This document shows positions 5,400-60,865 of a stretch of 64,000 nucleotides of DNA, one piece after another. A program made the position numbers and the translations under genes. Every line of letters begins with the position of its first letter. The stretch's first letter is position 1. The notes beneath the pieces are model-generated. The model made no database searches, had not been told where the DNA came from, and worked only from the letters and a program-made list of their open reading frames with translations. This stretch comes from Helicobacter canis. GTDB taxonomy: Bacteria > Campylobacterota > Campylobacteria > Campylobacterales > Helicobacteraceae. The DNA lies in assembly GCF_008693005.1 (NCBI RefSeq), contig NZ_VXKE01000001.1, positions 62,001 through 126,000 of the forward strand, given 5' to 3'.

Positions 5400-7247
5400 C
5401 TATTGCAGATCTTTAGTAATCGTGCGCAAATAGCCATTTTCGCTAAGCATTACATACAGCATACCTAACACTTCCTTTTTGTCCTCATCGCTAATGCTAG
5501 AATCATCAATGCGCTGCTTCAAAATCCGCTCAATTTCTTTGGTGTCATAGTCCAAATCATCGAGCACATCAAGGATATTTTGCGCTTCAAGCAGGTTTTC
5601 TATCTCATAGCCTTTGTTTAAATCATCATCAAACACCACGCTAAACTCTGTGGGGTGGGTGAAGAGATTATGCCGCATACCTAGCACCTCTTGATACGCC
5701 CCCACTAAGAAAAATCCTAGGAAATACTCTTCACTCATCACATCGACATCGTGCAGATATAAGGGCTTTTTGGCATCAAAGGCGATCTCGCCATCGCTAT
5801 CACAAGTAATATCCCACAGACTCGCACTTCTAGTGGGGCGGCGGTTAAGCCTATCTAGGGGCATTACAGGGAAGTTTTGCCCAAGCCCCCAATAATCTGG
5901 CAGGCTTTGGAAAAAGCTGCAATTAAGCAAATACCGCTCTTGGACTTGCTCTTGGATTCTAATAATGTCATTGTGGTTTTTGTGCTTTAGGAGTTTTATG
6001 ACTTTTTTGATGATTAAATGCACAAGGATTTCAGTGTTTGAGCGATCGGTTAAATCAATATAGCCTAGATCAAAGAGCGTTAAGAGCGACTCCATATGAT
6101 CGAGACTATCGTGCAAATATTCAATGGCATTTTTTTCACTTAGGCTTTGGTAGAGATCGAGCATTTCGGCGATTAGCGGTGGGTTGCTCTCTTTCAAGCG
6201 CAGGGCTTTTTCATCATACTCTTGGCTAAAGAGCTCTAGCACAGGCGCGACCAAAACAGCGTGGTTTGCCGAGACAAAGCGACCGGATTCTATGAAAATA
6301 TCTGGCTCTTTTTCTTGCTTGTTTCGCACGATTTCTTTAAGCGAGAATACGACATCGCCGCTAAACTCGCTTAGTGTGTAGTTGCGATTATTTTCGCCTT
6401 CGTGTTGGGTGTATTCTACTGCTAGTCCGCCACCGATATTGACACAAGTTAGGTTTTTTGCCCCCATTTTGCGCAGCTCTGCATAGATATTGCCCACTTC
6501 TCGCAGAGCTTTTTTAAGTGGAGAAATATCGCTGATTTGACTACCTATGTGGAAGTGAATCATTGTAAATTGCGCTAGGAGCTTGGAGTCTTCAAGGCGG
6601 CGGATCGCTTCTAAAAGCTCCGTAGAAGTAAGCCCAAATTTTGCATTGATCCCGCCAGACTTGCCCCACACACCCGTGCCTGTGCTATGCAGCCTAATGC
6701 GCAAGCCGATGTTAGGATAAGGCGCGCCAAGCTCCTTTGCTACTTCAATGATAGATTCTAGCTCATTGAGCCCTTCGATGGTTAGGGTAATGTCATGCCC
6801 CATCTTTGCCGCGATAAAGCCTAGAGAAATCATCTCCCTATCTTTAAAGCCATTAACCGTTATGGGAGCGTTTTTATTCGTATAAGCCATAGCGACAATA
6901 AGCTCGGATTTGCTGCCTGCCTCTAGCCCATAGCACAGCCCTTGCACGCACTCCATAAGCGGCAGCACGAAGTTTGGCATTTGATTGACCTTAAGGGGGA
7001 AAACAGCCTTAAAAGAGCCTGTATAGTGGTATTCATCAATGGCAGTTTCAAACGCGCTAAAAAGCTGACGCACTTGCTTGTGGATTAAGTGTGGAAAGCG
7101 CACAAGCAAGGGTCCTTTATAGCCCCTCTCTCTAATGTCTTGCACAATCTCAAGCAAGGAAGGCTTATGCTGATAATTAACTTTCACTAGCCCATCTTCG
7201 ATGATAAAATCATCATTTGACCAATACTTGATCCCATAATCCACCAT
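5400..7247 (-). CDS. speA: Biosynthetic arginine decarboxylase SpeA
   Basis: SpeA is a PLP enzyme that converts arginine to agmatine, the entry to polyamine synthesis. The 615-residue sequence shows the fold type III barrel: the PLP lysine in FPLKVNQ near residue 89, HFHIGSQ near residue 235, a glycine-rich [11 protein letters not shown] near residue 271, and a C-terminal [11 protein letters not shown] segment. The start follows a GAAGGAG site. Together with nspC at 23.2 kb it points to a spermidine-type pathway. cysE follows closely on the same strand. Confidence 0.96.
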
Positions 7248-7331: not shown

Positions 7332-8642
7332 CTAGCTCTCTAATTGCTTTAGCCAAGCACCACTTTGCCCTATGCGATAGAGCGCGAAATCATAGCGGAT
7401 AGGGTCGTGCGCGCAAAATCGTTTAAGAGCTGCACTCACTTCTAGCACAGCTTTTCTATCATAGCTTTTGCGCTGCAAGAGTGTGAGTGCGCGGCTTATG
7501 CGCAAGGTGTGGGTATCAAGCGGAAGGAGCAAATCACTAGGCGATAAAAGATCCTGCCATAGCCCTAGATCAATGTGGTCTTTACGCGTAAGCCAGCGCA
7601 GAAACATATTCCACCGCTTTAGCGGTGAGCTAGGCGAGAAGCCTACAAGGAAGCTAAAGCCTTGGGAAAACTGCTTGCTAGCCAAAAATCTAGCGCAATA
7701 ATCGTGGCTAAAAAATGGCGCGTATAAAGGGCTAGCTAGAATCCTACTTGCGTGAGAGCAAATAGCTTGGCTTATGGCACTAATGACAGCAAGCGGGGGT
7801 GCTTTGCGTGAAAAGCTAGATTCTAGTCCGCCTTGAGCGATAATGCACGCTAGGCTTGCGAAGAGTAGTTTTACATCGTCGCTAGTCTGGAAGCGGTAGT
7901 AGGGGAAGGTGGTGTGCAAAATATTTTCTAATCTTGGCAATTCAGTCTTGGGTAGGCAATGCTTAGAATCGTTGTGGCTTACGCTAGAACCTACGCTTGC
8001 GCTAAAATCTACTTCCGCCTGCGGCGTGGCTAAAACTCCTGCTTTTACCCTAGAATCCACTTTTTTATCGTCATTGCGAGCCTTGTCGCTAGGCAAGGCG
8101 AGGCAATCCATTTCTTCAATACTAGATTCTAGCTTTCGTGCATTTGTGTGGAAAGCTTGGGCGATTGTATCGCCTCGCAATGACGGGGAAAGGCTAGAAT
8201 CTAAGTTTTTGGATTCTAGCTCTGTCTGCTCGCGGCAGGATTTTTGAGCTAAAAATGGGGCTTTGCAAGGGCAGACTTGGGATTTACCTTGAGTGGTAAT
8301 GAGCGCAGACTCACCGCAGCAAAACAAGGGATACCGCTCGGCGTTAGCCGATGTTTCTTTAGAATCGCCATTTTTAGCCAAAAAGCCAACGCGCCCTTGA
8401 CTACCCAAGACCGAATCCCCACCAAGCAAGCTAAAATCTAGCTTCCGCAAAAACCCCACAATAGCCCCCACATTCCCATAAGCAAAAAGTGCGCAAACAA
8501 GCGCGATAGCAGAGAGATTTTCTCTTGTAGAGTTTTCATAGACAACAAGCAATGGGTCTAGATTGCGCTCGCTAATCGCCCCTATGCGATTATGCGCATA
8601 ATAGGCAGAATCTAGCAACTCCTGCAAGTTAGCGTGATTCAT
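7332..8642 (-). CDS. TIGR02757 family protein, interrupted by an in-frame repeat-coded insert
   Basis: The outer parts resemble the TIGR02757 (DUF2400) family: an N-terminal segment up to FLRKLDFSLL, then TTFPYYRFQTSDDVKLLFASL and a C-terminal region with KRWNMFLRWLTRKDHIDLGLW and PLDTHTLRISRALTLL. The biochemical role of the family is unknown to me; the fold suggests a helix-hairpin-helix DNA-glycosylase-like protein. About 165 residues (roughly 73-238, bases 7929-8426) are not part of the family. They are coded by dispersed repeats of families A and B and by TAGAWTCTA copies, yet the frame is kept. The start at 8642 is chosen because GGAG precedes it and it overlaps the lysE-like stop (TGATG); an upstream start at 8735 would lie inside that gene. 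Confidence 0.8.
   Translation of the reverse strand: MNHANLQELLDSAYYAHNRIGAISERNLDPLLVVYENSTRENLSAIALVCALFAYGNVGAIVGFLRKLDFSLLGGDSVLGSQGRVGFLAKNGDSKETSANAERYPLFCCGESALITTQGKSQVCPCKAPFLAQKSCREQTELESKNLDSSLSPSLRGDTIAQAFHTNARKLESSIEEMDCLALPSDKARNDDKKVDSRVKAGVLATPQAEVDFSASVGSSVSHNDSKHCLPKTELPRLENILHTTFPYYRFQTSDDVKLLFASLACIIAQGGLESSFSRKAPPLAVISAISQAICSHASRILASPLYAPFFSHDYCARFLASKQFSQGFSFLVGFSPSSPLKRWNMFLRWLTRKDHIDLGLWQDLLSPSDLLLPLDTHTLRISRALTLLQRKSYDRKAVLEVSAALKRFCAHDPIRYDFALYRIGQSGAWLKQLES
8069..8110. repeat. Family A palindromic repeat, copy A1 (inside CDS)
   Basis: Framed by CGTCATTGCGAG and GAGGCAATCCA. Its inner arms GCCTTG and CAAGGC pair around an 8-base loop. It sits in the TIGR02757-family gene and codes for part of the insert. 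Confidence 0.75.
8150..8185. repeat. Family A palindromic repeat, copy A2 (inside CDS)
   Basis: Ends in CTCGCAATGACG and has the inner pair GGCGAT / ATCGCC around TGT. It resembles copy A3 in the ABC-F gene, and both give the peptide GDTIA. Confidence 0.65.
8250..8376. repeat. Family B element, copy B1 (127 bp, inside CDS)
   Basis: Bounded by the inverted repeats TAAAAATGG and CCATTTTTA. Bases 8314-8379 are identical over 66 bp to 40245-40310 in the ABC-F gene. An inner hairpin (TTACC / GGTAA) occupies the place where copy B2 has CATAC / GTATG. The host gene reads this copy on the strand opposite to that read in B2, and both frames are open. Confidence 0.8.
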
Positions 8643-9283
8643 CACATCTCCATATATGTCGCATACAGCATAGTCCCTAGCCCATAGCATAAAGCGCACA
8701 TTATGCAGCCTGTGAAGCACTCTAGTGCCGCCCACGCCCTAGGGCTTTGAAAAAAGCTAGAAAACACCCTAGCCCCATACCCCACGCCAAAATACCACAC
8801 AAACGACACCCCAATAAGCCCTAGGAAAAACACCCCCTTCGCGCTAGAATCTAAGCTCGCACTCACCCCGCCGATGATGATAAAAGTATCAATGTAGAAG
8901 TTTGGATTTAGTAGCGTTAGGGCTAGGGTCATTGTGATAGCTTTAGCACGCGTGGTAGCGATATTTTTAGATTCTATATCTTGGTGAAGCTTATGCGCAC
9001 GCAGGAGTGTATAAGCCATCATAAACGAGCTAGCAGCATAGTAGAGCAAAAACCCTACCCCACACACCCCAAGCAGGAAAAACCACACACTCCCCTGACT
9101 AATCGCCCCACCGATACCAAAGACGCTAAAGCCCATCACCACAATATCGCACACCAGACACACGCAAATCACGCTAAGGATATGTTTGCGCGCTAGGGCT
9201 TGGCGCAGCACGAAGGCATTTTGCGCACCGATGACGACAATTAGGCTAATCCCAAGCAGCACGCCTTGCAAAAAGACATTCAT
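8642..9283 (-). CDS. LysE/ArgO family amino-acid exporter
   Basis: This protein of about 213 residues has six predicted membrane helices and the LysE-family signature near the start: GxxLGISLIVVIGAQNAFVLRQAL. A second family mark, LTLLNPNFYIDTFIIIGG, lies near the middle. LysE/ArgO proteins export basic amino acids such as lysine or arginine; the substrate here cannot be told from sequence. I chose the ATG at 9283 because the family begins close to it and a GGAT-type site precedes it; the longer frame to 9334 adds 17 atypical residues. Its stop overlaps the start of the TIGR02757-family gene, indicating translational coupling. Confidence 0.85.
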   Translation of the reverse strand: MNVFLQGVLLGISLIVVIGAQNAFVLRQALARKHILSVICVCLVCDIVVMGFSVFGIGGAISQGSVWFFLLGVCGVGFLLYYAASSFMMAYTLLRAHKLHQDIESKNIATTRAKAITMTLALTLLNPNFYIDTFIIIGGVSASLDSSAKGVFFLGLIGVSFVWYFGVGYGARVFSSFFQSPRAWAALECFTGCIMCALCYGLGTMLYATYMEM

Positions 9284-25507: not shown

Positions 25508-25868
25508 GGGGTCGATTTGGCTTCGACAAGATTCGTATCCCTTGAGTGCATGTCGGCTCGGTAAGCCGTAAAACTGCCATACAAATAAACGCAAACAATG
25601 CAAACTTCGCTCCAGCTTACGCAAAAGCAGCATAAGCCTAACTAATTTCGGAGCCGATTACTTAGTGAGACTAGCGCGCTTGTGTGATCGTTACTTATGC
25701 TAGTTGCCCCTAGATTCTGCTCGATCTCTAGGGAAAGATGAGAGCTTTTTGCGCAAGTAAAGTTTAAGGTCTTTTTGCGCGAGAATCTAAAACCTTAGCC
25801 CTTAAGCATGTCGAGTCTCTTGCGGTCGCGGATTTTGGACTGGGGTTCAACTCCCCACGACTCCACCA
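25508..25868 (+). ncRNA. ssrA: tmRNA (SsrA)
   Basis: tmRNA rescues stalled ribosomes and tags the product for proteolysis. The 5' end GGGGTCG pairs with CGACTCC near the 3' end, which closes with CCA. The 3' part has the T-arm GGTTCAACTCC. The tag frame runs from about 25591 to the TAA at 25633-25635 and reads A-NNANFAPAYAKAA, close in its last eight residues to the H. pylori tag as I remember it. The tag ends in AA, as needed for ClpXP recognition. A TAGATTCT and an AGAATCTA lie inside the RNA body at about 25712-25719 and 25782-25789, where they could pair or disturb pseudoknots. Confidence 0.97.
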
Positions 25869-35610: not shown

Positions 35611-35619
35611 GGGGGGGGG
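35611..35619 (+). repeat. Poly-G tract (G9) upstream of the FadL-type gene
   Basis: Nine G residues, 35 bases before the ATG at 35655, in the 5' leader or promoter region. Slippage here could change expression. Confidence 0.8.
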
Positions 35620-37391: not shown

Positions 37392-37433
37392 GGTTAGCAC
37401 ATCGCCCTAGAATCTACTTTCAAAGGATTCAGC

Positions 37434-37533
37434 TTGCGGGCTAGAATCGTGGATTGCTTCATCTCACTGCGTCGATAGACCTCTAGTCTTATCTCCTTGC
37501 TCGCCTTGCAAAACCACAATTCTAGCCGCGCAA
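37434..37533. repeat. Family C MITE-like element, copy C1 (100 bp, intergenic)
   Basis: Terminal inverted repeats of 19-20 bp: TTGCGGGCTAGAATCGTGG at 37434-37452 and CCACAATTCTAGCCGCGCAA at 37514-37533. The core (GATAGACCTCTAGTCTTATC, reverse orientation) is shared with copies C3 and C4. It fills most of the 304-base gap between the FadL-type gene and the next gene; no gene is seen there. Confidence 0.8.
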
Positions 37534-37648
37534 TCTTAGAATCCCAAAGCGGTGATGAAACAAGCCTAAACACCCACAACCCCGCCGCAATTCTTAGAAT
37601 CGTTTTACTCTAAAACTAACTTCAATCCTAGAATCCACATTTATGATA

Positions 37649-37695: not shown

Positions 37696-38100
37696 ATGAA
37701 AGCCTATAAACAATACTTGCTTCAAGCCCTACTTCTAGGGTTTTGTGTCAATAGCGCGTTTGGCGCGTGGGAGATGTTTAGCGATGGGAAAGACACCTAT
37801 CTCTACAACACCCAAAGCGGCGATGTCTATATCCGCTACAATCGCGGCGGCAAGAACTATGAAGACATTTTTGTCAAAATGCCAGCAGGAACACTCCCTA
37901 GCCAACTCTCACCCACTCAAGCCCCCTCTACCAAGCGCACAAACCCTAGCACCACACCACAGATACTCTCCCCCACTGCCCCCCAAGCCCCGAGCAAAAA
38001 TGACGAGAGCGCAAAGCTTTTAGAGCAGCAGCAGCAAGCTTTGCAAAAGTCCCAAGAGCTCCTGCGCAATAGTATTGATACAAGCGGAGTGCTGGAGTAA
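37696..38100 (+). CDS. Small exported protein of unknown function
   Basis: The 134-residue product has a signal peptide (MKAYKQYLLQALLLGFCVNSAFG), a short beta-rich part (WEMFSDGKDTYLYNTQSGDVYIRYN), a Pro/Ser/Thr-rich linker and a glutamine-rich helix at the end. I know no function. The ATG at 37696 is chosen because GGGAGG stands before it; a longer frame begins at 37648, inside the promoter. Its stop overlaps the ABC-F gene start by one base (TAATG), so the two are coupled. Confidence 0.65.
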   Translation: MKAYKQYLLQALLLGFCVNSAFGAWEMFSDGKDTYLYNTQSGDVYIRYNRGGKNYEDIFVKMPAGTLPSQLSPTQAPSTKRTNPSTTPQILSPTAPQAPSKNDESAKLLEQQQQALQKSQELLRNSIDTSGVLE

Positions 38101-40562
38101 TGGCTCTGCTTTCTTTACACAATGCCTACAAAAGCTTTGGCGCGCGCAAAGTGCTAGAAAATGCCAGCCTAAGCCTTGATGATGGCGAGCGAGTGGCGAT
38201 CATTGGCAAAAATGGCGCAGGCAAAAGCACCTTACTAAAAATCCTATGCGAGCAAATGCCGCTAGATTCTGGCACACTAGCAAAGCGCCCCAATCTAGTA
38301 GCGCGCATCCTCCCCCAAGACCCACATTTTAGAGTGGATCTAAGCGTTAGGGAAGTGTGTGAAGCAAGCTTGCAGGAGCTAGTAGCGATCCATAAGAGAG
38401 TAGATGAGATTAACGCACTTTTGCAAGCAGATTCTAGGGAGCTTACCCAAAACACAGAGCTTCTAAACGAGCTAGGCACTCTCACCACACAGCTAGACTC
38501 CATTGATGGCTGGGATTTGGAGAAGCGGATTACAGAGCTTATAGAGAACTTCCACCTAAAAGACCTGCAAGATCGCGCCATAGGCACACTAAGTGGCGGG
38601 GAGCTTAAGCGACTAGCACTTGCTACAATCCTTATGCAGCCAGCAGATCTCTATATCTTAGATGAGCCTACAAACCACCTTGATGTCGAAGTTGTAGAAT
38701 TTTTAGAATCTAAGCTTAACGCGCTTAAAGCCTGCGTGCTTTTCATTAGCCACGATCGCTACTTCATCGATAATTGCGCTAGGCGGATTATCGAAGTGGA
38801 TTCTAGTAAGCTTACAAACTTCCGCGGCGGCTATGGCGCGTATCTTTCCCAAAAAGCCGCGATGCTAGAGAGCCTTGCCAAAGAGCACTCCCGCACGCTA
38901 AAGCTTCTAAAAGCAGAAGAAGAGTGGCTGCATAAAGGCGTGCAAGCAAGAAGGAAGCGCAATGTCTTGCGCAAAGAGCGAGTCGAGCTTCTGCGCGCTA
39001 AGGCAAAGCAGAATCCAAGCCTAATGCGCCAAATGCGCCTAGAGCTAGAGCGCGAGAGCAAGCACCATAATCGCACCCACTCACACAACGCACAGAAAAT
39101 GATCATAGAGTGTGAGAATCTATGCGTAAGTATGGGCGGGAAGCCTTTGATCAAAGATTGCAGTCTGCGGATTCTACAAGGGGATAAAATCGCCATAGTC
39201 GGGCGCAATGGTGCTGGCAAGTCAAGCTTGCTTAAAGTCTTTTTAGGAGAGATCGCGCCACAAAGCGGGGCAATCAAGCGCGGAGAGCTAAAGATAGGCT
39301 ACTTCGCTCAAACACGCAAGGAGCTTGATGATAGTAAGAGTCTCATTGAGACCTTTTGCCCAAATGGTGGGGATCATATTGAGGTAAAGGGCAAGAGTAT
39401 GCATATTTATGGGTATTTGAAGAGCTTTCTCTTCCCCAAAGATTTGCTCACACAAAAAATCGGCGCACTAAGTGGCGGGGAAAAAACGCGCGTAAGCTTG
39501 GCACTACTTTTTACCAAGCAGTATGACTGCTTGCTTTTAGATGAGCCTACAAATGACCTAGACATCGCTACAATCAATATCCTAGAAGAGTATTTACTCT
39601 CTTTTTCTGGGGCACTGCTACTTGTGAGCCACGATCGCTACTTCATCGACAAGCTCGCGCAAAAGCTGCTTATCTTGCACAATCCTTTGCAGCTAGATTC
39701 TAGCGCGCGTGGCTCTAGGGGAGAATCTAGCGTAGAAGAGAGCTTGCAGAGCTTTAGTGAGTATCTTGAGCTATCCAAAGAGATAGCCTACTATAAACAG
39801 CTAGAATCTAGCCTTACCAACAGAGATTCGGCTTTGGGTGAGCAATGCGGCAGTGTTGCAAAAATTGTGAAAGGCACGACCACCAAGGTCGCTAACCTTC
39901 CCCAATTTTTGCAAAGCTCCCACAGCCCCACCGCAATTCCTAGAATCTTAGAAGAAAATCAATCGTCATTGCAAGGCGATACAATCGCCGAAGCAATCCA
40001 CACAAATGCACAAAAGCTAGATTCTAGTATTGAAGAAATGGATTGCCACGCCGATAAATCGGCTCGCAATGACGATGAAAACGCGCAAATTCCCAACAAG
40101 TTAGCAAAGGATTCTAGGATTAACAAAAACGCTCAAAATGTGTTTTCTCCAAACGCAGATAGGCGGCAGGATTTGGGTGATAAAAATGGGGCTTTGCAAG
40201 AGCAGACTTGGGCGCATACTAGAGCGTATGTAACCGCCGACTCGCCGCAGCAAAACAAGGGATACCGCTCGGCGTTAGCCGATGTTTCTTTAGAATCGCC
40301 ATTTTTAGCCCCAAAGCCAACGCCCAAAAATAAAAAGCTTAGCTACAATGAACAGCGCGAGCTAGCCACCCTACCAGAGCGCATACAATCCCTAGAAGCA
40401 CAAAAGCAGCTCATCGAGCAGCGACTTAGCGATGAGATAAGCCTAGCACGCTATGGTGTAGTAGCACTAGCAAGCGAGCTAGAATCTATCGCTAAAGAGC
40501 TAGATTCTAGCTATGAGCGATACTTTTTCCTAGAAGAAAAGCAAGAATCTCTAAAGCGTTAA
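38100..40562 (+). CDS. ABC-F family ATPase (Uup-like) with repeat-coded insert
   Basis: ABC-F proteins bind the ribosome and act in translation, not in transport. Two ATPase domains are seen: GKNGAGKSTLLKIL, LSGGELKRLALA and ILDEPTNHLD in the first; GRNGAGKSSLLKV, LSGGEKTRVSLALL and LLDEPTNDLD in the second. A C-terminal coiled coil (KKLSYNEQRELATLPERIQ to the end) is of the Uup type. At 820 residues it is about 170 longer than usual. The excess, bases about 39820-40335, is made of family A and B repeats in frame between the second ATPase domain and the coiled coil. Confidence 0.9.
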   Translation: MALLSLHNAYKSFGARKVLENASLSLDDGERVAIIGKNGAGKSTLLKILCEQMPLDSGTLAKRPNLVARILPQDPHFRVDLSVREVCEASLQELVAIHKRVDEINALLQADSRELTQNTELLNELGTLTTQLDSIDGWDLEKRITELIENFHLKDLQDRAIGTLSGGELKRLALATILMQPADLYILDEPTNHLDVEVVEFLESKLNALKACVLFISHDRYFIDNCARRIIEVDSSKLTNFRGGYGAYLSQKAAMLESLAKEHSRTLKLLKAEEEWLHKGVQARRKRNVLRKERVELLRAKAKQNPSLMRQMRLELERESKHHNRTHSHNAQKMIIECENLCVSMGGKPLIKDCSLRILQGDKIAIVGRNGAGKSSLLKVFLGEIAPQSGAIKRGELKIGYFAQTRKELDDSKSLIETFCPNGGDHIEVKGKSMHIYGYLKSFLFPKDLLTQKIGALSGGEKTRVSLALLFTKQYDCLLLDEPTNDLDIATINILEEYLLSFSGALLLVSHDRYFIDKLAQKLLILHNPLQLDSSARGSRGESSVEESLQSFSEYLELSKEIAYYKQLESSLTNRDSALGEQCGSVAKIVKGTTTKVANLPQFLQSSHSPTAIPRILEENQSSLQGDTIAEAIHTNAQKLDSSIEEMDCHADKSARNDDENAQIPNKLAKDSRINKNAQNVFSPNADRRQDLGDKNGALQEQTWAHTRAYVTADSPQQNKGYRSALADVSLESPFLAPKPTPKNKKLSYNEQRELATLPERIQSLEAQKQLIEQRLSDEISLARYGVVALASELESIAKELDSSYERYFFLEEKQESLKR
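39964..40000. repeat. Family A palindromic repeat, copy A3 (inside CDS)
   Basis: CGTCATTGC...GAAGCAATCCA with inner arms GGCGAT / ATCGCC. It codes for the same GDTIA-type peptide as A2 in the TIGR02757-family gene. Confidence 0.7.
40040..40074. repeat. Family A palindromic repeat, copy A4 (inside CDS)
   Basis: GGATTGCCACG...GGCTCGCAATGACG with the stem CCGAT / ATCGG around AA. Read as DCHADKSARNDD. Confidence 0.75.
40181..40307. repeat. Family B element, copy B2 (127 bp, inside CDS)
   Basis: Same length and same bounding inverted repeats (TAAAAATGG / CCATTTTTA) as B1. Bases 40245-40310 are identical to 8314-8379. The inner stem is CATAC / GTATG. Here the coding strand is the reverse of that in B1. 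Confidence 0.8.
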
Positions 40563-54410: not shown

Positions 54411-54493
54411 AAAAAAACGCCGCAAGTAAAAAAGTGGATTCTAGGAATAACACTAAAAAATATAACCACGCCGCAGGCGGCAGGATTTTTGAT

Positions 54494-54578
54494 GAAAAAG
54501 TGGGGTTGTGCAGCCTTTTGTGCGGAGATAAGCCTAGTGGGCTATCGCACAAACAAAAGGCAAACTCCCCGCTTTTTC
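54494..54578. repeat. Family C-related palindromic element, copy C2 (intergenic)
   Basis: An 85-bp nested palindrome: outer arms GAAAAAGTGGGG / CCCCGCTTTTTC (one G-T pair), middle arms GCCTTTTGTGCG / CGCACAAACAAAAGGC, and inner AGCC / GGCT. The core GAGATAAG...CTATCGCAC is shared with C4. The ends differ from the other copies. The 252-base gap between the M16 gene and gatB is mostly this and copy A5, with no credible gene. Confidence 0.75.
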
Positions 54579-54615
54579 GCAAAAAGCCAACGCCAAAACC
54601 AAAAAAGGAGAAACA

Positions 54616-56084: not shown

Positions 56085-56093
56085 TGCTACAAT
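56085..56093 (+). promoter_or_regulatory. Extended -10 promoter of the glycosyltransferase gene
   Basis: TGCTACAAT. The ATG at 56092 lies inside this box, which rules it out as the start and favours TTG at 56125. Confidence 0.6.
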
Positions 56094-56300
56094 GCCAAAT
56101 CCACATAAGAGTAAGGACTGCAACTTGGTAGCACATAGCCAGATCATCTCTGTCGCGCTTTTGCATCATCGCTGCTCTTTAGAGAGCCTAGAGAAGCTCT
56201 ACCGCGCGCTTAAAGATCGCTTCGCATATTTTGAGATCGTGCTGCTAAACCCTGTGCTAGAGCCCAAAGCCCCAAATGAGCAAAAGCTAGATTCTAGTAT

Positions 56301-56347
56301 GGATTCTAAAGAAACATCGGCTACGCCCAAGCAGTATCCCTTGTTTT
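56301..56347. repeat. Family B fragment, copy B3 (inside CDS)
   Basis: Reverse orientation and diverged: TAAAGAAACATCGGCTACGC then GCAGTATCCCTTGTTTT, matching the core of B1 and B2. Confidence 0.65.
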
Positions 56348-56362
56348 CTAAAGAAGCTACGC

Positions 56363-56402
56363 TTTGCCACGCAAGCACTAGTGCGCTTGCTCGCAATGAC
56401 AG
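56363..56402. repeat. Family A palindromic repeat, copy A6 (inside CDS)
   Basis: TTTGCCACG...CTCGCAATGACAG with inner arms CAAGCAC / GTGCGCTTG. Read as CHASTSALARND. Confidence 0.75.
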
Positions 56403-56494
56403 AAAAGTAGATTCTAGACGAACTTGCTCGCGGTGGGATTTGGGTGATAAAAATGGGGCTTACTCTTTTATATTCTCAGCACAGGATTCTAAGA

Positions 56495-56595
56495 TTGCGG
56501 GGCTAGAATCGGGGCTTTTCAAGGCTTGCAAGGAAGATAAGACTAGTGGTCTATCGACGCCGCAAGGCGCAGAAATCCACGATTCTAGTCTGCAA
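56495..56595. repeat. Family C MITE-like element, copy C3 (101 bp, inside CDS)
   Basis: Ends TTGCGGGGCTAGAATCGGGG and CCACGATTCTAGTCTGCAA form inverted repeats. The core GATAAGACTAGTGGTCTATC is itself a hairpin (AGAC / GTCT). It codes for the end of the upstream frame, just before the C12 tract. Confidence 0.8.
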
Positions 56596-56614
56596 GCTGA
56601 ATCCCTAAATATTG

Positions 56615-56626
56615 CCCCCCCCCCCC
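56615..56626 (+). repeat. Homopolymer C12 tract, phase-variation switch
   Basis: Twelve C inside a glycosyltransferase gene. The upstream frame stops at 56634; the downstream frame continues to 57430. Loss of one C or gain of two would fuse them. Confidence 0.9.
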
Positions 56627-57429
56627 GCTACTAGCATAACCCACACTATCCCAAATTGCCGCGTGCTGCAGGTGCGCTCTATGGCTGGAGATTATAAGAA
56701 TCTAGGTGCGCTCTCTTATGAGATTTTCTTACGCCATTGCATTGGGGATTATGTGCTGTTTATGGATTTGCAGAGCGACCCGCTTGATGTAGCACTTGCA
56801 ATACTAGAATCCTGCCATAATTATGACATCACCATAGCTAGCCGCACGCGCAAGCCCTATGGCTTTGTGCAAGCATACGCATCAAGGCTCTTCTATAAAA
56901 TATTGAGAATGTTTAGCGATGGCGAGTATAGAGAAGAGCTTAGTGAGTTTTGTGTGCTCTCACGCAAGGCGATCAATGTGCTTTTACGCACGCAAGATGA
57001 TATTAAGCTTTTGCGCTTTATTGATTTTGATAGCACGCTAAAGATCTGTGAGCACCCCTACACCCCTACCAAAATACCTAGAAAATCACTGCTAGATCAT
57101 ATCAATCTAGGGCTTGATATGATCTTTGGTCGCTCCTATAAGCTACTGCGGCTAGGCACTTGCCTGTGCTTAGCGTTTGCGGTTTTTAATGGAGTCTATG
57201 GGATCTACATCGCTATCTCATTTTACTTTATGCCCCATATCACGCAAGGCTGGACTTCGACTTCTGCCTATATGGTGCTAAGTAATATTGGGCTATTTTC
57301 TATGCTCTCAATCATCGGCGAGTATATGCGCATAATCCTACTCAAGCAAAAGGGCGCAGCCTATGAGATCATTGATGAGCAAAGCTCTGTCGTCTTAGAC
57401 TACACAGAGACTAATATCAAGGACTCCTA

Positions 57430-58224
57430 ATGCAAAAGACACTTAATATCCTGCTGCCTGTGCTAAATGAGCAAGACCGCCTAGAATCTGGGGTGCGCAC
57501 GCTTGCAGCATTTATGACAGAGCACAATATCCCCTGTATCCTTACTATCATCGATAATGGCTCAACTGATGCTACGCAAGAAATCGCCCTATCGCTAGCG
57601 GATTCTAGTGGTAAAGCCCAATCGCGCATTGCCATAGAATACCTCCGCCTAAATCAAAAAGGCGTAGGCTTAGCCCTGCAAGCCGGCATAGATCACAACA
57701 ACTCTAGGCAATGCAAAAGCGCGTTTATTGGCTATATGGATATTGATCTATCTACCAACCTCTGCCATTTACTTGAAGCCTATGAGAGTCTGTGCGTGGG
57801 CTCTATGGTCGTTGTAGGCTCAAGACTGCTGCAAGGCTCTAGAGTCATAGGGCGAAGCCTAAAGCGCGAAATCATCTCAAAATCGCTTAATGCCATCATC
57901 AAAGCCGCCTTGCACACGAGCTTTAGCGATGCAATGTGCGGGTTTAAATTCTACCAAGCAGACATCGCTACACTACTGCGCCAAAAGTGCAGCGATGATC
58001 CAAGCTGGTTTTACTGCGCACAAATGCTTATACAAGCCCAAGCCCTAGGGATAGAGATTGAAGAAATCCCCGTGCAATGGGAAGATGACCCCCTAGGCTC
58101 AAAGGTGCAAATCACAAAGCTTGCTAGAATCTATCTCAAAGAGATCTACCGCTTGCGCCCCCTGCGCCAAGCAATCCTAGCACATAAACGCTCAAAGCTC
58201 TCCCAAAGCAATGCAGCCAAATAA
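57430..58224 (+). CDS. Family 2 glycosyltransferase (DPM1/ALG5-like)
   Basis: The 264-residue enzyme has a GT-A fold: NILLPVLNEQDRLESGV, TIIDNGSTDATQE, the acceptor-type LNQKGVGLALQAGI, YMDIDLSTN as the DxD-like metal site and MCGFKFYQAD with EIPVQWEDDPLGSKV. It resembles enzymes that move a sugar to a polyprenyl phosphate, but it has no membrane helix. It begins one base inside the end of the phase-variable gene, so translation may be affected by the C tract upstream. It probably serves surface glycan synthesis. Confidence 0.85.
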   Translation: MQKTLNILLPVLNEQDRLESGVRTLAAFMTEHNIPCILTIIDNGSTDATQEIALSLADSSGKAQSRIAIEYLRLNQKGVGLALQAGIDHNNSRQCKSAFIGYMDIDLSTNLCHLLEAYESLCVGSMVVVGSRLLQGSRVIGRSLKREIISKSLNAIIKAALHTSFSDAMCGFKFYQADIATLLRQKCSDDPSWFYCAQMLIQAQALGIEIEEIPVQWEDDPLGSKVQITKLARIYLKEIYRLRPLRQAILAHKRSKLSQSNAAK

Positions 58225-60865
58225 GCCTAAAGCCCTGCTTATAGGGAGTGGATACTTTGGGCAGATTCTACGCCCTTACATTGCCAAGCACTGCAAGATC
58301 CTAGCCATAGCCAACACTGCTACAAGCAACCTTAGCACCCTGCTAGTGCAAGTGGATATATGCTTTGTCATCACGCCACTAAATGCGCATTTTGAGCTAG
58401 CTAAAGCCGCCTTGCAATCGGGCTGCCACACTTTCATAGAAAAGCCAGCCACTAGCAATGCCAAGGAATACCGCGAGCTTTTATCCCTAGCCAAAGAGCG
58501 AAATCTCGTGCTTTTTACAGACTATATCTACACACTTAGCCCATCAATCCGCCACGCACTTTCACTCTGCAAGCACAAAAGCCTAGAATCTATCTATGCT
58601 AGCTTTACGCAATATGGGAAATTCTATAAGAATGAAAGCGTGCTTGAAGTGCTAGGTGTGCATTATCTAAGCGTGTTTGCTCTAATGCAAGAGCTTAGCA
58701 TTATCACAGATGTAGAAGTGCAAGAGTGCGTGTTTTTAGATTCTAGTAGGCTTAGTGCTAGACTTATACTTAGTGCTAAACAAGGGGGCAAGGCTATCCC
58801 AATCACCCTAGAGTGCTCGCTTCTTAGCTCAAGTCGCCAAAGGGTGCTGCAGCTTTTCTCTAGCAAGGAGCATTGCTTGCAAATAGATATGCTAGATTCT
58901 ACCCCGCTATCGCACAAAGCCGATAAAGCCCTAGAATCTAGCTTGCCTATCTTTGATGAGAGTGGCAACCTAGCCCATAGCCTAGCGACATTTATGAGCT
59001 TCATAGCAAGCGATAATCTCGCTAAGAATGTGCATTATGTGGCGCATACAAATGTGTGTGCAAGGACAGCCTGCTTGCTAGATTCAGCTTTGGGTAATCA
59101 TTCCGCAGATTTTGGGGATTTTCTAAAGAAACATCGCCTAGCGGCGAGCGGTATCCCTTGTTTTAGGGCAACCGCAGACCGCAAGTCTCGCTCTACCCTA
59201 AAATCCCCAAAAAACTACGAAAGCAACACCACAAAACAAGCGATAGCGGTGCAAGGCGAAGCCGCAGCAGGTTTCTTTAGAAATCTTAGAATCTTGGAAA
59301 AAGAAAACAACCAAACCGAGCTAGAATCTAGCGTGCAAGTGGATTGCCACGCAAACGCTAGCGCGCTTGCTCGCAATGACGGAAAAACCCAGAATCTAAA
59401 GTCGGCACAGGATTCTAGGAGTTTCAACAAAAACGCTAAAAATCTAACAACGCCGCAGGCGGAAGCAAAGCTAGATTCTAGCGTGGATTGCCACGCGGAC
59501 AAATCCGCTCGCAATGACGATGAAGCCACACAAACCAAAAGCCCCTGCGATTCTAAGATTTTGGAGCTAGAATCGGGGCTTTTCGAGCCGCGCGCGGAGA
59601 TAAGACTTGGCGGTCTATCGCACAAGCACGGCGATGAAATCCACGATTCTAGCCCAAAACCAGCGACAGCGGTGCAAGGCGAAGCCGCAGCAGGTTTCTT
59701 TAGAAAAGCTGAATCGCCCACGATCAAAAAAGCCACAGCACACTACGACTGCATCATCATCGGCGGCGGCTTCTTTGGCACATATATCGCAAGCACCCTG
59801 CGGCAAAAATACAGAAAGATTCTCATCGTAGAGAAGGAGCGCGATCTGCTCTTGCGCGCCAGCTTGCGCAATCAAGCGCGCGTGCATAATGGCTACCACT
59901 ACCCACGCTCCCTTAGCACAGCCCTAAGCAGTGCTAGGCATTTTACGCGCTTTTGCGATGAGTTTGCCCCAGCTATTCTTAATGCGTTTGAAAAATACTA
60001 TGCCATCGCTGCGTATGGCTCTAAGACTTCTGCCACGCAGTTTTATAGACTTTTTAAGCAGTTTTCTATCCCTATTGAGCGGGCAAGTGATGCGGTGCAG
60101 GGGCTTTTCACACGCGAGCTAGTTGAAGAAGTCTTTTGTGTGCAAGAATATGCCTTTAATGCCAATATCTTGCGCGAGATTCTGCAAGAGCGACTGCGCA
60201 CAAGTGGCATAGAAATCGCGCTCAATACACAGGCTATGCGAGTCTTTAGCGATTGGGGGGAAGTAGGGGTTAGCGTGCTAGAATCTAGTGCGCAAAGAGA
60301 GCAGACCTTGCACGCACCTCTTGTGCTAAACTGCACTTATGCAGGGATCAACGCCCTGCTAGCCCGCTCAGCTCTCCCGCCTTTGCCGCTGAAATATGAG
60401 CTTACAGAAATGGCTTTAGTCCAAGTGCCAGAGTCTCTAGCTCGCTTAGGGGTTACCATTATGGACGGGGCGTTTTTCTCACTTATGCCCTACCCTGCTA
60501 AAAACTGCTACACGCTAAGCCATGTGCGCTATACGCCACATTGTGCGTGGAGTGATAGCAGCCAAGCGTGCGACCCTTATGCCTTGCTAGATTCTCTCCT
60601 GCACCCTACAAGCAAGTCCCGAAAGCTAGAATCTAAATTCCCCCTTATGTGCCAAGATGCAGCGCGCTATCTCCCAGAGCTATCAAAGCTAGAGTATATC
60701 GACTCTTTGTATGAGATAAAGACACTTCGCACGCACAATGAAATCGATGATGGCAGACCCATAATCTTTGCCAAAGACTATGGAGTAAAGGGGTTTTGCA
60801 CGATTATGGGTGGCAAAATCGATAATATCTATGAGATTATCCACGCGCTACAAGCGCATTTCTAG
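58211..60865 (+). CDS. Fusion of Gfo/Idh/MocA-like oxidoreductase and FAD-dependent oxidoreductase joined by a repeat-coded linker
   Basis: The 884-residue protein holds two enzymes. Residues about 1-290 are a Gfo/Idh/MocA-type NAD(P) domain: LLIGSGYFGQILR, FVITPLNAHFELAKAAL, FIEKPAT. Residues about 510-884 are a DAO-type FAD domain: YDCIIIGGGFFGTYIAS, RASLRNQARVHNGYHYPRS, and an ending KIDNIYEIIHAL. Between them, bases about 59088-59735 code about 215 residues made of family A, B and C repeats and a 45-bp direct repeat. It overlaps the glycosyltransferase gene by 14 bases. The pair may act on a nucleotide or lipid-linked sugar; this is inference from the locus. Confidence 0.8.
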   Translation: MQPNKPKALLIGSGYFGQILRPYIAKHCKILAIANTATSNLSTLLVQVDICFVITPLNAHFELAKAALQSGCHTFIEKPATSNAKEYRELLSLAKERNLVLFTDYIYTLSPSIRHALSLCKHKSLESIYASFTQYGKFYKNESVLEVLGVHYLSVFALMQELSIITDVEVQECVFLDSSRLSARLILSAKQGGKAIPITLECSLLSSSRQRVLQLFSSKEHCLQIDMLDSTPLSHKADKALESSLPIFDESGNLAHSLATFMSFIASDNLAKNVHYVAHTNVCARTACLLDSALGNHSADFGDFLKKHRLAASGIPCFRATADRKSRSTLKSPKNYESNTTKQAIAVQGEAAAGFFRNLRILEKENNQTELESSVQVDCHANASALARNDGKTQNLKSAQDSRSFNKNAKNLTTPQAEAKLDSSVDCHADKSARNDDEATQTKSPCDSKILELESGLFEPRAEIRLGGLSHKHGDEIHDSSPKPATAVQGEAAAGFFRKAESPTIKKATAHYDCIIIGGGFFGTYIASTLRQKYRKILIVEKERDLLLRASLRNQARVHNGYHYPRSLSTALSSARHFTRFCDEFAPAILNAFEKYYAIAAYGSKTSATQFYRLFKQFSIPIERASDAVQGLFTRELVEEVFCVQEYAFNANILREILQERLRTSGIEIALNTQAMRVFSDWGEVGVSVLESSAQREQTLHAPLVLNCTYAGINALLARSALPPLPLKYELTEMALVQVPESLARLGVTIMDGAFFSLMPYPAKNCYTLSHVRYTPHCAWSDSSQACDPYALLDSLLHPTSKSRKLESKFPLMCQDAARYLPELSKLEYIDSLYEIKTLRTHNEIDDGRPIIFAKDYGVKGFCTIMGGKIDNIYEIIHALQAHF
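59110..59212. repeat. Family B-related element, copy B4 (103 bp, inside CDS)
   Basis: Perfect 13-bp terminal inverted repeats TTTTGGGGATTTT (59110-59122) and AAAATCCCCAAAA (59200-59212). The inside holds the TAAAGAAACATCG and GGTATCCCTTGTTTT parts of family B in reverse orientation. Confidence 0.8.
59239..59283 (+). repeat. 45-bp direct repeat, left copy
   Basis: Matches 59662-59706 except for one base (T/C at the sixth position). The two copies are 423 bp apart, exactly 141 codons, so recombination between them would delete linker sequence without a frameshift. Confidence 0.9.
59341..59381. repeat. Family A palindromic repeat, copy A7 (inside CDS)
   Basis: GGATTGCCACG...CTCGCAATGACG with inner arms CAAACGC / GCGCGCTTG. 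Read as DCHANASALARND. Confidence 0.8.
59485..59519. repeat. Family A palindromic repeat, copy A8 (inside CDS)
   Basis: GGATTGCCACG...CTCGCAATGACG with stem GCGG / CCGC. Read as DCHADKSARND. Confidence 0.8.
59559..59659. repeat. Family C MITE-like element, copy C4 (101 bp, inside CDS)
   Basis: Ends TTTTGGAGCTAGAATCGGGG and CCACGATTCTAGCCCAAAA pair as inverted repeats; the core GAGATAAGACTTGGCGGTCT folds (AGAC / GTCT). Same length as C3. It lies just before the right copy of the 45-bp direct repeat. Confidence 0.8.
59662..59706 (+). repeat. 45-bp direct repeat, right copy
   Basis: Near-identical to 59239-59283. Its peptide AVQGEAAAGFFRK appears twice in the fusion protein. Confidence 0.9.

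Follow-up and report, generated by a model that had tools for sequence, protein, structure and literature searches.

Why do several genes of Helicobacter canis hold long palindromic repeats within their reading frames, and what kind of element are these repeats? The question arises from a window of 64,000 nt (G000:C1:62001-126000), a stretch of the 1.93-Mb, 26-contig genome of H. canis GCF_008693005.1 (G000), for which a sequence-only reading had described dispersed palindromic repeats built into four protein-coding genes. The inserts are present in all four named genes, with borders set by protein comparison for three of them, and they belong to a system that extends through the whole genome. 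Comparison of the window with itself revealed long blocks common to the four inserts and to intergenic places, far above chance, such as the similarity of 8232-8392 to 40163-40323 (161 nt, 86%, E 2e-47) and of 8062-8185 to 39964-40081 (127 aligned nt, 83%, E 3e-32).

The first host gene (7332..8735, minus strand) encodes a TIGR02757/DUF2400 protein of 467 aa, in which the TIGR02757 match (202.9 bits) falls into two stretches with an in-frame insert of 161 codons between them (7941..8423, minus strand). This insert consists of an element of family A with a nested 42-nt unit, followed by CGTC REPs and a linker. Element A (8231..8393, minus strand; 121 nt plus the 42-nt unit; 38.7 bits with covariance model R1) lies in the host frame and has uninterrupted copies elsewhere. 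Its nested unit (A2, CTAAAGAAAC...CCCTTGTTTT) occupies 8321..8364 on the minus strand, and a CGTC-tagged REP pair with spacer (family B; 8040..8215, minus strand) matches the published tag, stem and tail (PMC3733652). The second host gene (38100..40562, plus strand) encodes an ABC-F ATPase of 820 aa with two ABC_tran domains and ABC_tran_CTD at residues 746-813 (Pfam). Its insert of 166 codons (39822..40319, plus strand) stands ahead of the C-terminal coiled-coil domain and contains element F (39824..39948, plus strand; R1 24.6 bits), CGTC REPs, and an antisense element A with the nested 42-nt unit (40165..40324, minus strand; R1 37.5 bits), which is the 86% counterpart of 8232-8392.

The third host, a probable glycosyltransferase (56092..57430, plus strand), consists of two ORFs (56092-56634 and 56612-57430, the second with a PgfS-type match) split at a poly-C tract of 12 of phase-variable type (56615..56626, plus strand), and is therefore out of frame in this assembly. 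Its insert, from about 56262 to 56611, precedes the tract and includes a 42-nt unit (A2; 56304..56347, plus strand) and an element C adjoining the tract (56484..56604, plus strand; R1 128.4 bits). A poly-G tract of nine is also present at 35611-35619, and G or C tracts of at least 8 nt lie near elements in G000 12 times, versus 4.6 by chance. The fourth host (58211..60865, plus strand; 884 aa) is a Gfo/Idh/MocA oxidoreductase fused to a DAO-type FAD oxidoreductase (Pfam), whose junction insert of 217 codons (59081..59731, plus strand) comprises element G with a nested A2 unit, D units, CGTC REPs, and an element C whose 3' arm contains a 48-nt D unit, as recognised by filled/empty comparison (59548..59665, plus strand; R1 108.9 bits). 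The view that the copies lie in frame within their hosts stands for the DUF2400, ABC-F and Gfo/Idh-DAO genes, but not for the glycosyltransferase with its frame broken at the C12 tract. Likewise, all four hosts carry copies as described, but copies are intergenic too, namely an element C (37425..37544, minus strand; R1 124.1 bits) and an element of the A/C superfamily (54479..54594, plus strand; R1 52.5 bits).

The inserts are mosaics of several families, as had been proposed, and the proposed number of three families proved too small, since the mosaics combine A, C, F and G with CGTC REPs and with nested units of 42 and 48 nt, while A, C and F score with one model. Families A, C, F and G start with GGATTC and end with GAATCC; A, C and F are about 121-125 nt long with 29 stem pairs, and 25 of the 27 copies of C are exactly 121 nt. 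Among 18 aligned C copies, 98.7% of 522 cells are paired across the 29 stem pairs, and 14 stem pairs have changed on both sides. None of 500 shuffles of the C copies matched the observed pairing, double changes or covariation score, and the pairing collapsed when the arms were slid by one to three columns as a control. A covariance model built from C also matches the A and F copies in the window, indicating that A, C and F form one structural superfamily. As judged from the aligned sequences, the hairpin of A, C and F is shown to be conserved through paired base changes. The apical hairpins GATAAGAC...GTCTATC and GCATAC...GTATGTAACC are seen to recur in different families. An Rfam search of the window recognised no intron family, and its sole match was the tmRNA gene at 25508-25868.

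Copies of A, F and G can contain the 42-nt unit, which also occurs in tandem; A copies with and without it differ in length by exactly 42 nt, and a variant with a loop one base shorter has one extra base elsewhere. An identical 44 nt was found at many unrelated loci. The site of the unit, TT/TTTT, is compatible with a short duplication; a target-site duplication and a parent insertion sequence with matching ends would mark a MITE with a DDE parent. According to the filled/empty comparison, a second nested unit, of 48 nt, resides in C. CGTC REPs are defined by a terminal unpaired CGTC, an 8-9-bp stem beginning with AT, a short loop and a CCA tail; previously described members have a CGTC end, an ATTGC stem start and a CCA tail, often stand in facing pairs, comprise CGTC-1 to CGTC-4, include RPE-4, RPE-6 and Neisseria dRS3 (= CGTC-1), and have no dedicated transposase (PMC3733652). 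Family B likewise has the CGTC end, the ATTGC stem start, the CCA tail and often facing pairs, as in CGTCATTGCAAGG...CGAAGCAATCCA at 39962-40090 and similar copies, so that by its features it is a member of the CGTC REPs, with loops in some copies longer by eye than the defined 4-5 nt. Unlike the CGTC REPs described before, those of Helicobacter share a single insert with hairpins that are larger and of other kinds, and A, C, F and G, with their GGATTC and GAATCC ends, lack the CGTC tag.

Within G000, at least 58 matches were found to the query 8227-8400, at least 39 to 56462-56611 and at least 40 to 8040-8215. The sampled stretches contained 129 clusters in 237 kb of G000 around matches, 96 in 400 kb of the sister species G004, and 37, mostly of the short CGTC type, in 1.2 Mb of G003 from the same genus, and the window itself has nine; since the sampling is partial and centred on matches, these densities are biased upward and the copy counts are lower bounds. 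The element superfamily model matches 36 of 121 genomes of the family in seven of 13 genera, with no g7 genome among the matches listed, and a search of plasmids with element C gave no match. Outside Helicobacter, the 42-nt unit pattern has a single match in a Puniceicoccaceae contig (L122 3368-3404), in which the element model found none. The count of genic copies that had been recommended gave 70 out of 95 clusters in one set and 32 out of 47 in another within ORFs no shorter than 200 aa, compared with 76-77% of random stretches; the elements are not kept out of genes.

Alignment with orthologues mapped the insert borders and disclosed empty sites in relatives at DUF2400, prolyl-tRNA synthetase (ProRS) and MutS2. 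The same inserts in distant relatives, named by the sequence-only reading as counter-evidence, were looked for, and distant relatives are without inserts. In the DUF2400 gene, the gap between the conserved motifs is 66 nt in G002 and G003, and 552, 513 and 849 nt in G000, G001 and G004, respectively, with differences that are multiples of three; at this same place stand element A in G000 and element F in G001 and G004. The ProRS site contains A in G000 and F in G004; G001 lacks a full element there, G002 and G003 have no element at all, and in nearly every other genome the two flanking matches meet directly. MutS2 and further genes display the same pattern of filled and empty sites with different elements, and one insert of G004 is absent from G000. 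Differences between sister species at one site would fit insertion and exchange alike. These comparisons also bear on the idea that the hosts are decaying pseudogenes or the inserts assembly errors, for which the split glycosyltransferase of this assembly could be cited. The independent genomes G000, G001 and G004 are filled at the same sites with different content, the single-copy ProRS host has intact flanks, and the inserts keep frame, which renders this idea barely credible.

How the inserts are read was analysed across a wider set of hosts. Partial samples yielded 43 element-bearing ORFs of at least 200 aa in G000 and 20 in G004. When G003 proteins were searched against stretches in which the elements had been masked, homologous flanks on both sides were recovered at 17 loci, of which 12 are in frame without stops; these loci were picked by similarity to the window inserts, and the 1.2 Mb of G003 supplied orthologues for part of the hosts only. 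Among the remaining five, three contain G or C tracts of 12-14 nt. Of the other two, which were set aside, the one at 219891-220379 of G004 has matches that track an antisense ORF, and the one at 5836-6250 of the G004 1260001 stretch gave discordant outcomes in two runs. In all 12 of its long-ORF hosts, element A follows the single frame in which it is open, and element G keeps to one frame in 17 of 17 long ORFs. Element C has two open frames, one used 11 times and the other 10, and these two frames may follow simply from palindromy.

Pfam hosts interrupted or flanked by elements in G000 include ProRS, MgsA/RarA, MutS2, a Mur ligase and a heptosyltransferase, and those in G004 include CarB, PurL, a MurG-like enzyme, UbiD and MutS2. 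ProRS, CarB and MurG are generally essential. A type ISP restriction enzyme of G000 was identified as a host via its G003 homologue; this restriction-modification gene (G000:C7:4676-8695), with four separate clusters, is among the most loaded hosts. The peptides that the inserts encode have a hydrophilic character, with few hydrophobic residues. In ProRS, which was found once in G000, the insert stands where residues 287-301 of the solved Pseudomonas aeruginosa enzyme lie. The AlphaFold2 model of ProRS (27 sequences), whose best PDB matches are bacterial ProRS, gives residues 291-349 a pLDDT below 50 between the well-predicted strands 277-288 and 351-361, so that the insert is predicted to be exactly the disordered part.

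As to the other counter-evidence named beforehand, host genes that are not translated through their inserts, the genes stay open through them at the ORF level. From these open frames and from ProRS, a single-copy and generally essential host, we infer that the inserts are translated within host proteins. An alternative is that the final protein is free of the insert, the hairpin being excised from the mRNA or the peptide from the protein, or the ribosome bypassing it. The strong conserved hairpins and the presence of inserts in essential enzymes would suit such removal; however, skipped inserts need neither stop-free frames nor lengths in threes, the open-frame reading of A (12/12) and G (17/17) and the predominance of in-frame loci argue against it, and no intron family was recognised. 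Removal is thus very improbable.

Matches in the phage collection were confined to H. canis prophage records (third-party annotations), and these prophages contain dense sets of A, C, F, G, B, D and the 42-nt unit. Two prophages have, within the gene for DnaG primase, a G element that a third lacks, with a net difference of 138 nt; further on in the same gene, one phage carries the 42-nt unit and another a CGTC REP. No clear target-site duplication could be read from the prophage comparisons. A group-II/Drt-like reverse transcriptase is encoded directly downstream of element clusters in H. canis prophages (L259 28690-29736; L262 29883-30935). This neighbourhood, and the resemblance of CGTC REPs to the RAYT-tied GTAG REPs (PMC3733652), would favour spread by a phage reverse transcriptase or by a Y1 (RAYT/IS200-type) transposase. 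Yet Y1_Tnp (PF01797) gave no match in G000-G004 (G000 being 99.98% complete) or in most carriers, and RVT_1 was found neither in G001 nor in the g6 and g11 carriers, making either agent improbable. Assignment to RAYT-associated REPs (REPtron) was rejected for the lack of PF01797 in G000-G004, and a reverse transcriptase was rejected as a required agent for not correlating with carriers.

With a probability of roughly 85%, we consider the repeats to be non-autonomous hairpin palindromic elements that have spread through a Helicobacter clade and its prophages and resemble the Rickettsia palindromic elements (RPEs). Previous work showed that orthologous genes of Rickettsia, DNA polymerase III and a tRNA synthetase among them, carry elements of different groups at one and the same site (PMC3767692). 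The parallel to Rickettsia drawn by the sequence-only reading is borne out, as different groups occupy the same gene site in both, also between sister species (PMC3767692), and family B has the features of CGTC REPs. Like RPEs, the Helicobacter elements are hairpins of about 100-150 nt in several families, lying in frame in many unrelated genes without breaking them; this likeness is one of description, and only family B has the CGTC end described for RPE-4/6. They differ from RPEs in that the main families lack the CGTC tag and have GGATTC/GAATCC ends and nested 42- and 48-nt units, occur on prophages and have made a gene fusion; their hosts are gut bacteria, whereas Rickettsia is obligate intracellular.

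Neisseria has intergenic mosaic elements, in which RS units lie between dRS3 repeats as short units with shared ends. The Helicobacter mosaics, in contrast, lie largely inside genes and in frame. By description, modular MITE-like repeats (pneumococcal BOX, enterobacterial RU/ERIC) are similarly non-autonomous, modular and hairpin-forming, but mainly intergenic; PMC2759123 describes enterobacterial units that carry ORFs and occur inside genes. Helicobacter has no occurrence in PMC3733652, and in the open-licence literature no description was found of Helicobacter palindromic repeats in genes or of the main families. Together with the likeness to RPEs and the absence of the CGTC tag from the main families, this points to the same kind of system in a new form. 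Work on gene-borne palindromic elements has so far centred on Rickettsia, a difficult organism to study; Helicobacter provides a second system, well populated and built from other sequences, whose hosts are gut bacteria with available sister species and phages. How the elements move, why in-frame insertion is often tolerated and whether new protein parts are seeded thereby become testable questions.

Under the proposed mechanism, a copy arriving in a gene would be retained only if it keeps the frame and lies in a loop or at a domain border that tolerates it, and would then be translated into hydrophilic, disordered peptide. At an occupied site, elements would exchange or accumulate, either through recombination at the ends they have in common or through insertion of one into another, and phages, perhaps together with natural transformation, would carry copies between cells. 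As the chief cause of changes in what a site contains, we tentatively prefer end-to-end recombination over repeated transposition through an unknown enzyme, giving it somewhat less than even odds. G000 and relatives carry a competence gene of the ComEC type.

The word AGAWTCT, often as CTAGAWTCTAG, occurs at 2.5 per kb in the window versus 0.15 expected; it is over-represented 8-16 times in the genus and dense in G003 too. It is among the most over-represented words in the window and in the G003 and G004 stretches, mostly within genes and mostly in one codon phase, and resembles a signal for DNA uptake or some other signal that acts across the genome; the open-licence literature yielded nothing on an AGAATC uptake signal. 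At empty sites (G003 linkers), it was present in nine of 12 versus 4.4 expected, an enrichment that is suggestive only. A more speculative and rather unlikely extension is that (CT)AGAWTCT(AG) is a DNA uptake or recombination signal, and that the elements are selfish amplifications with GATTC/GAATC at both ends; transformation, phage transfer and end-to-end recombination would then swap in-frame peptide cassettes and occasionally fuse genes. The abundance of the word in the genus and in the G003 linkers, and the tandem 42-nt copies, could also be taken as signs of fast-growing low-complexity linkers, produced by slippage and shuffling of such short words without mobile elements. This explanation is quite improbable given the identical 44 nt at many unrelated loci, the recurrence of 121-nt hairpins with paired changes in seven genera, and the precise filled and empty states.

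The proposed mechanism extends to intergenic copies, where the same process could delete a stop and a start and join two ORFs. The Gfo/Idh and DAO domains lie in one ORF in G000, G001 and G004, with junctions of 645, 273 and 426 nt that are largely element-derived and stop-free. In G108, G103, G034, G027, G100, G110 and G128, the Gfo/Idh stop codon precedes the start of the DAO domain, with junctions of 20-113 nt; G101 is similar, with a junction of 296 nt, and G127 is ambiguous. Since element-free relatives have two separate adjacent genes, the two-enzyme fusion ORF is, by this comparison, a product of the elements, and not the pre-existing host for which it had been taken. Internal starts in the fused ORF are possible. 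The fused oxidoreductase is a tangible example of how such repeats can create a new arrangement of genes. The DAO oxidoreductases of other genera, namely G101, whose insert (L225) gave no match to the element model, and also G104, G092 and G095, carry a different in-frame insert at another position in ORFs of 483-508 aa.
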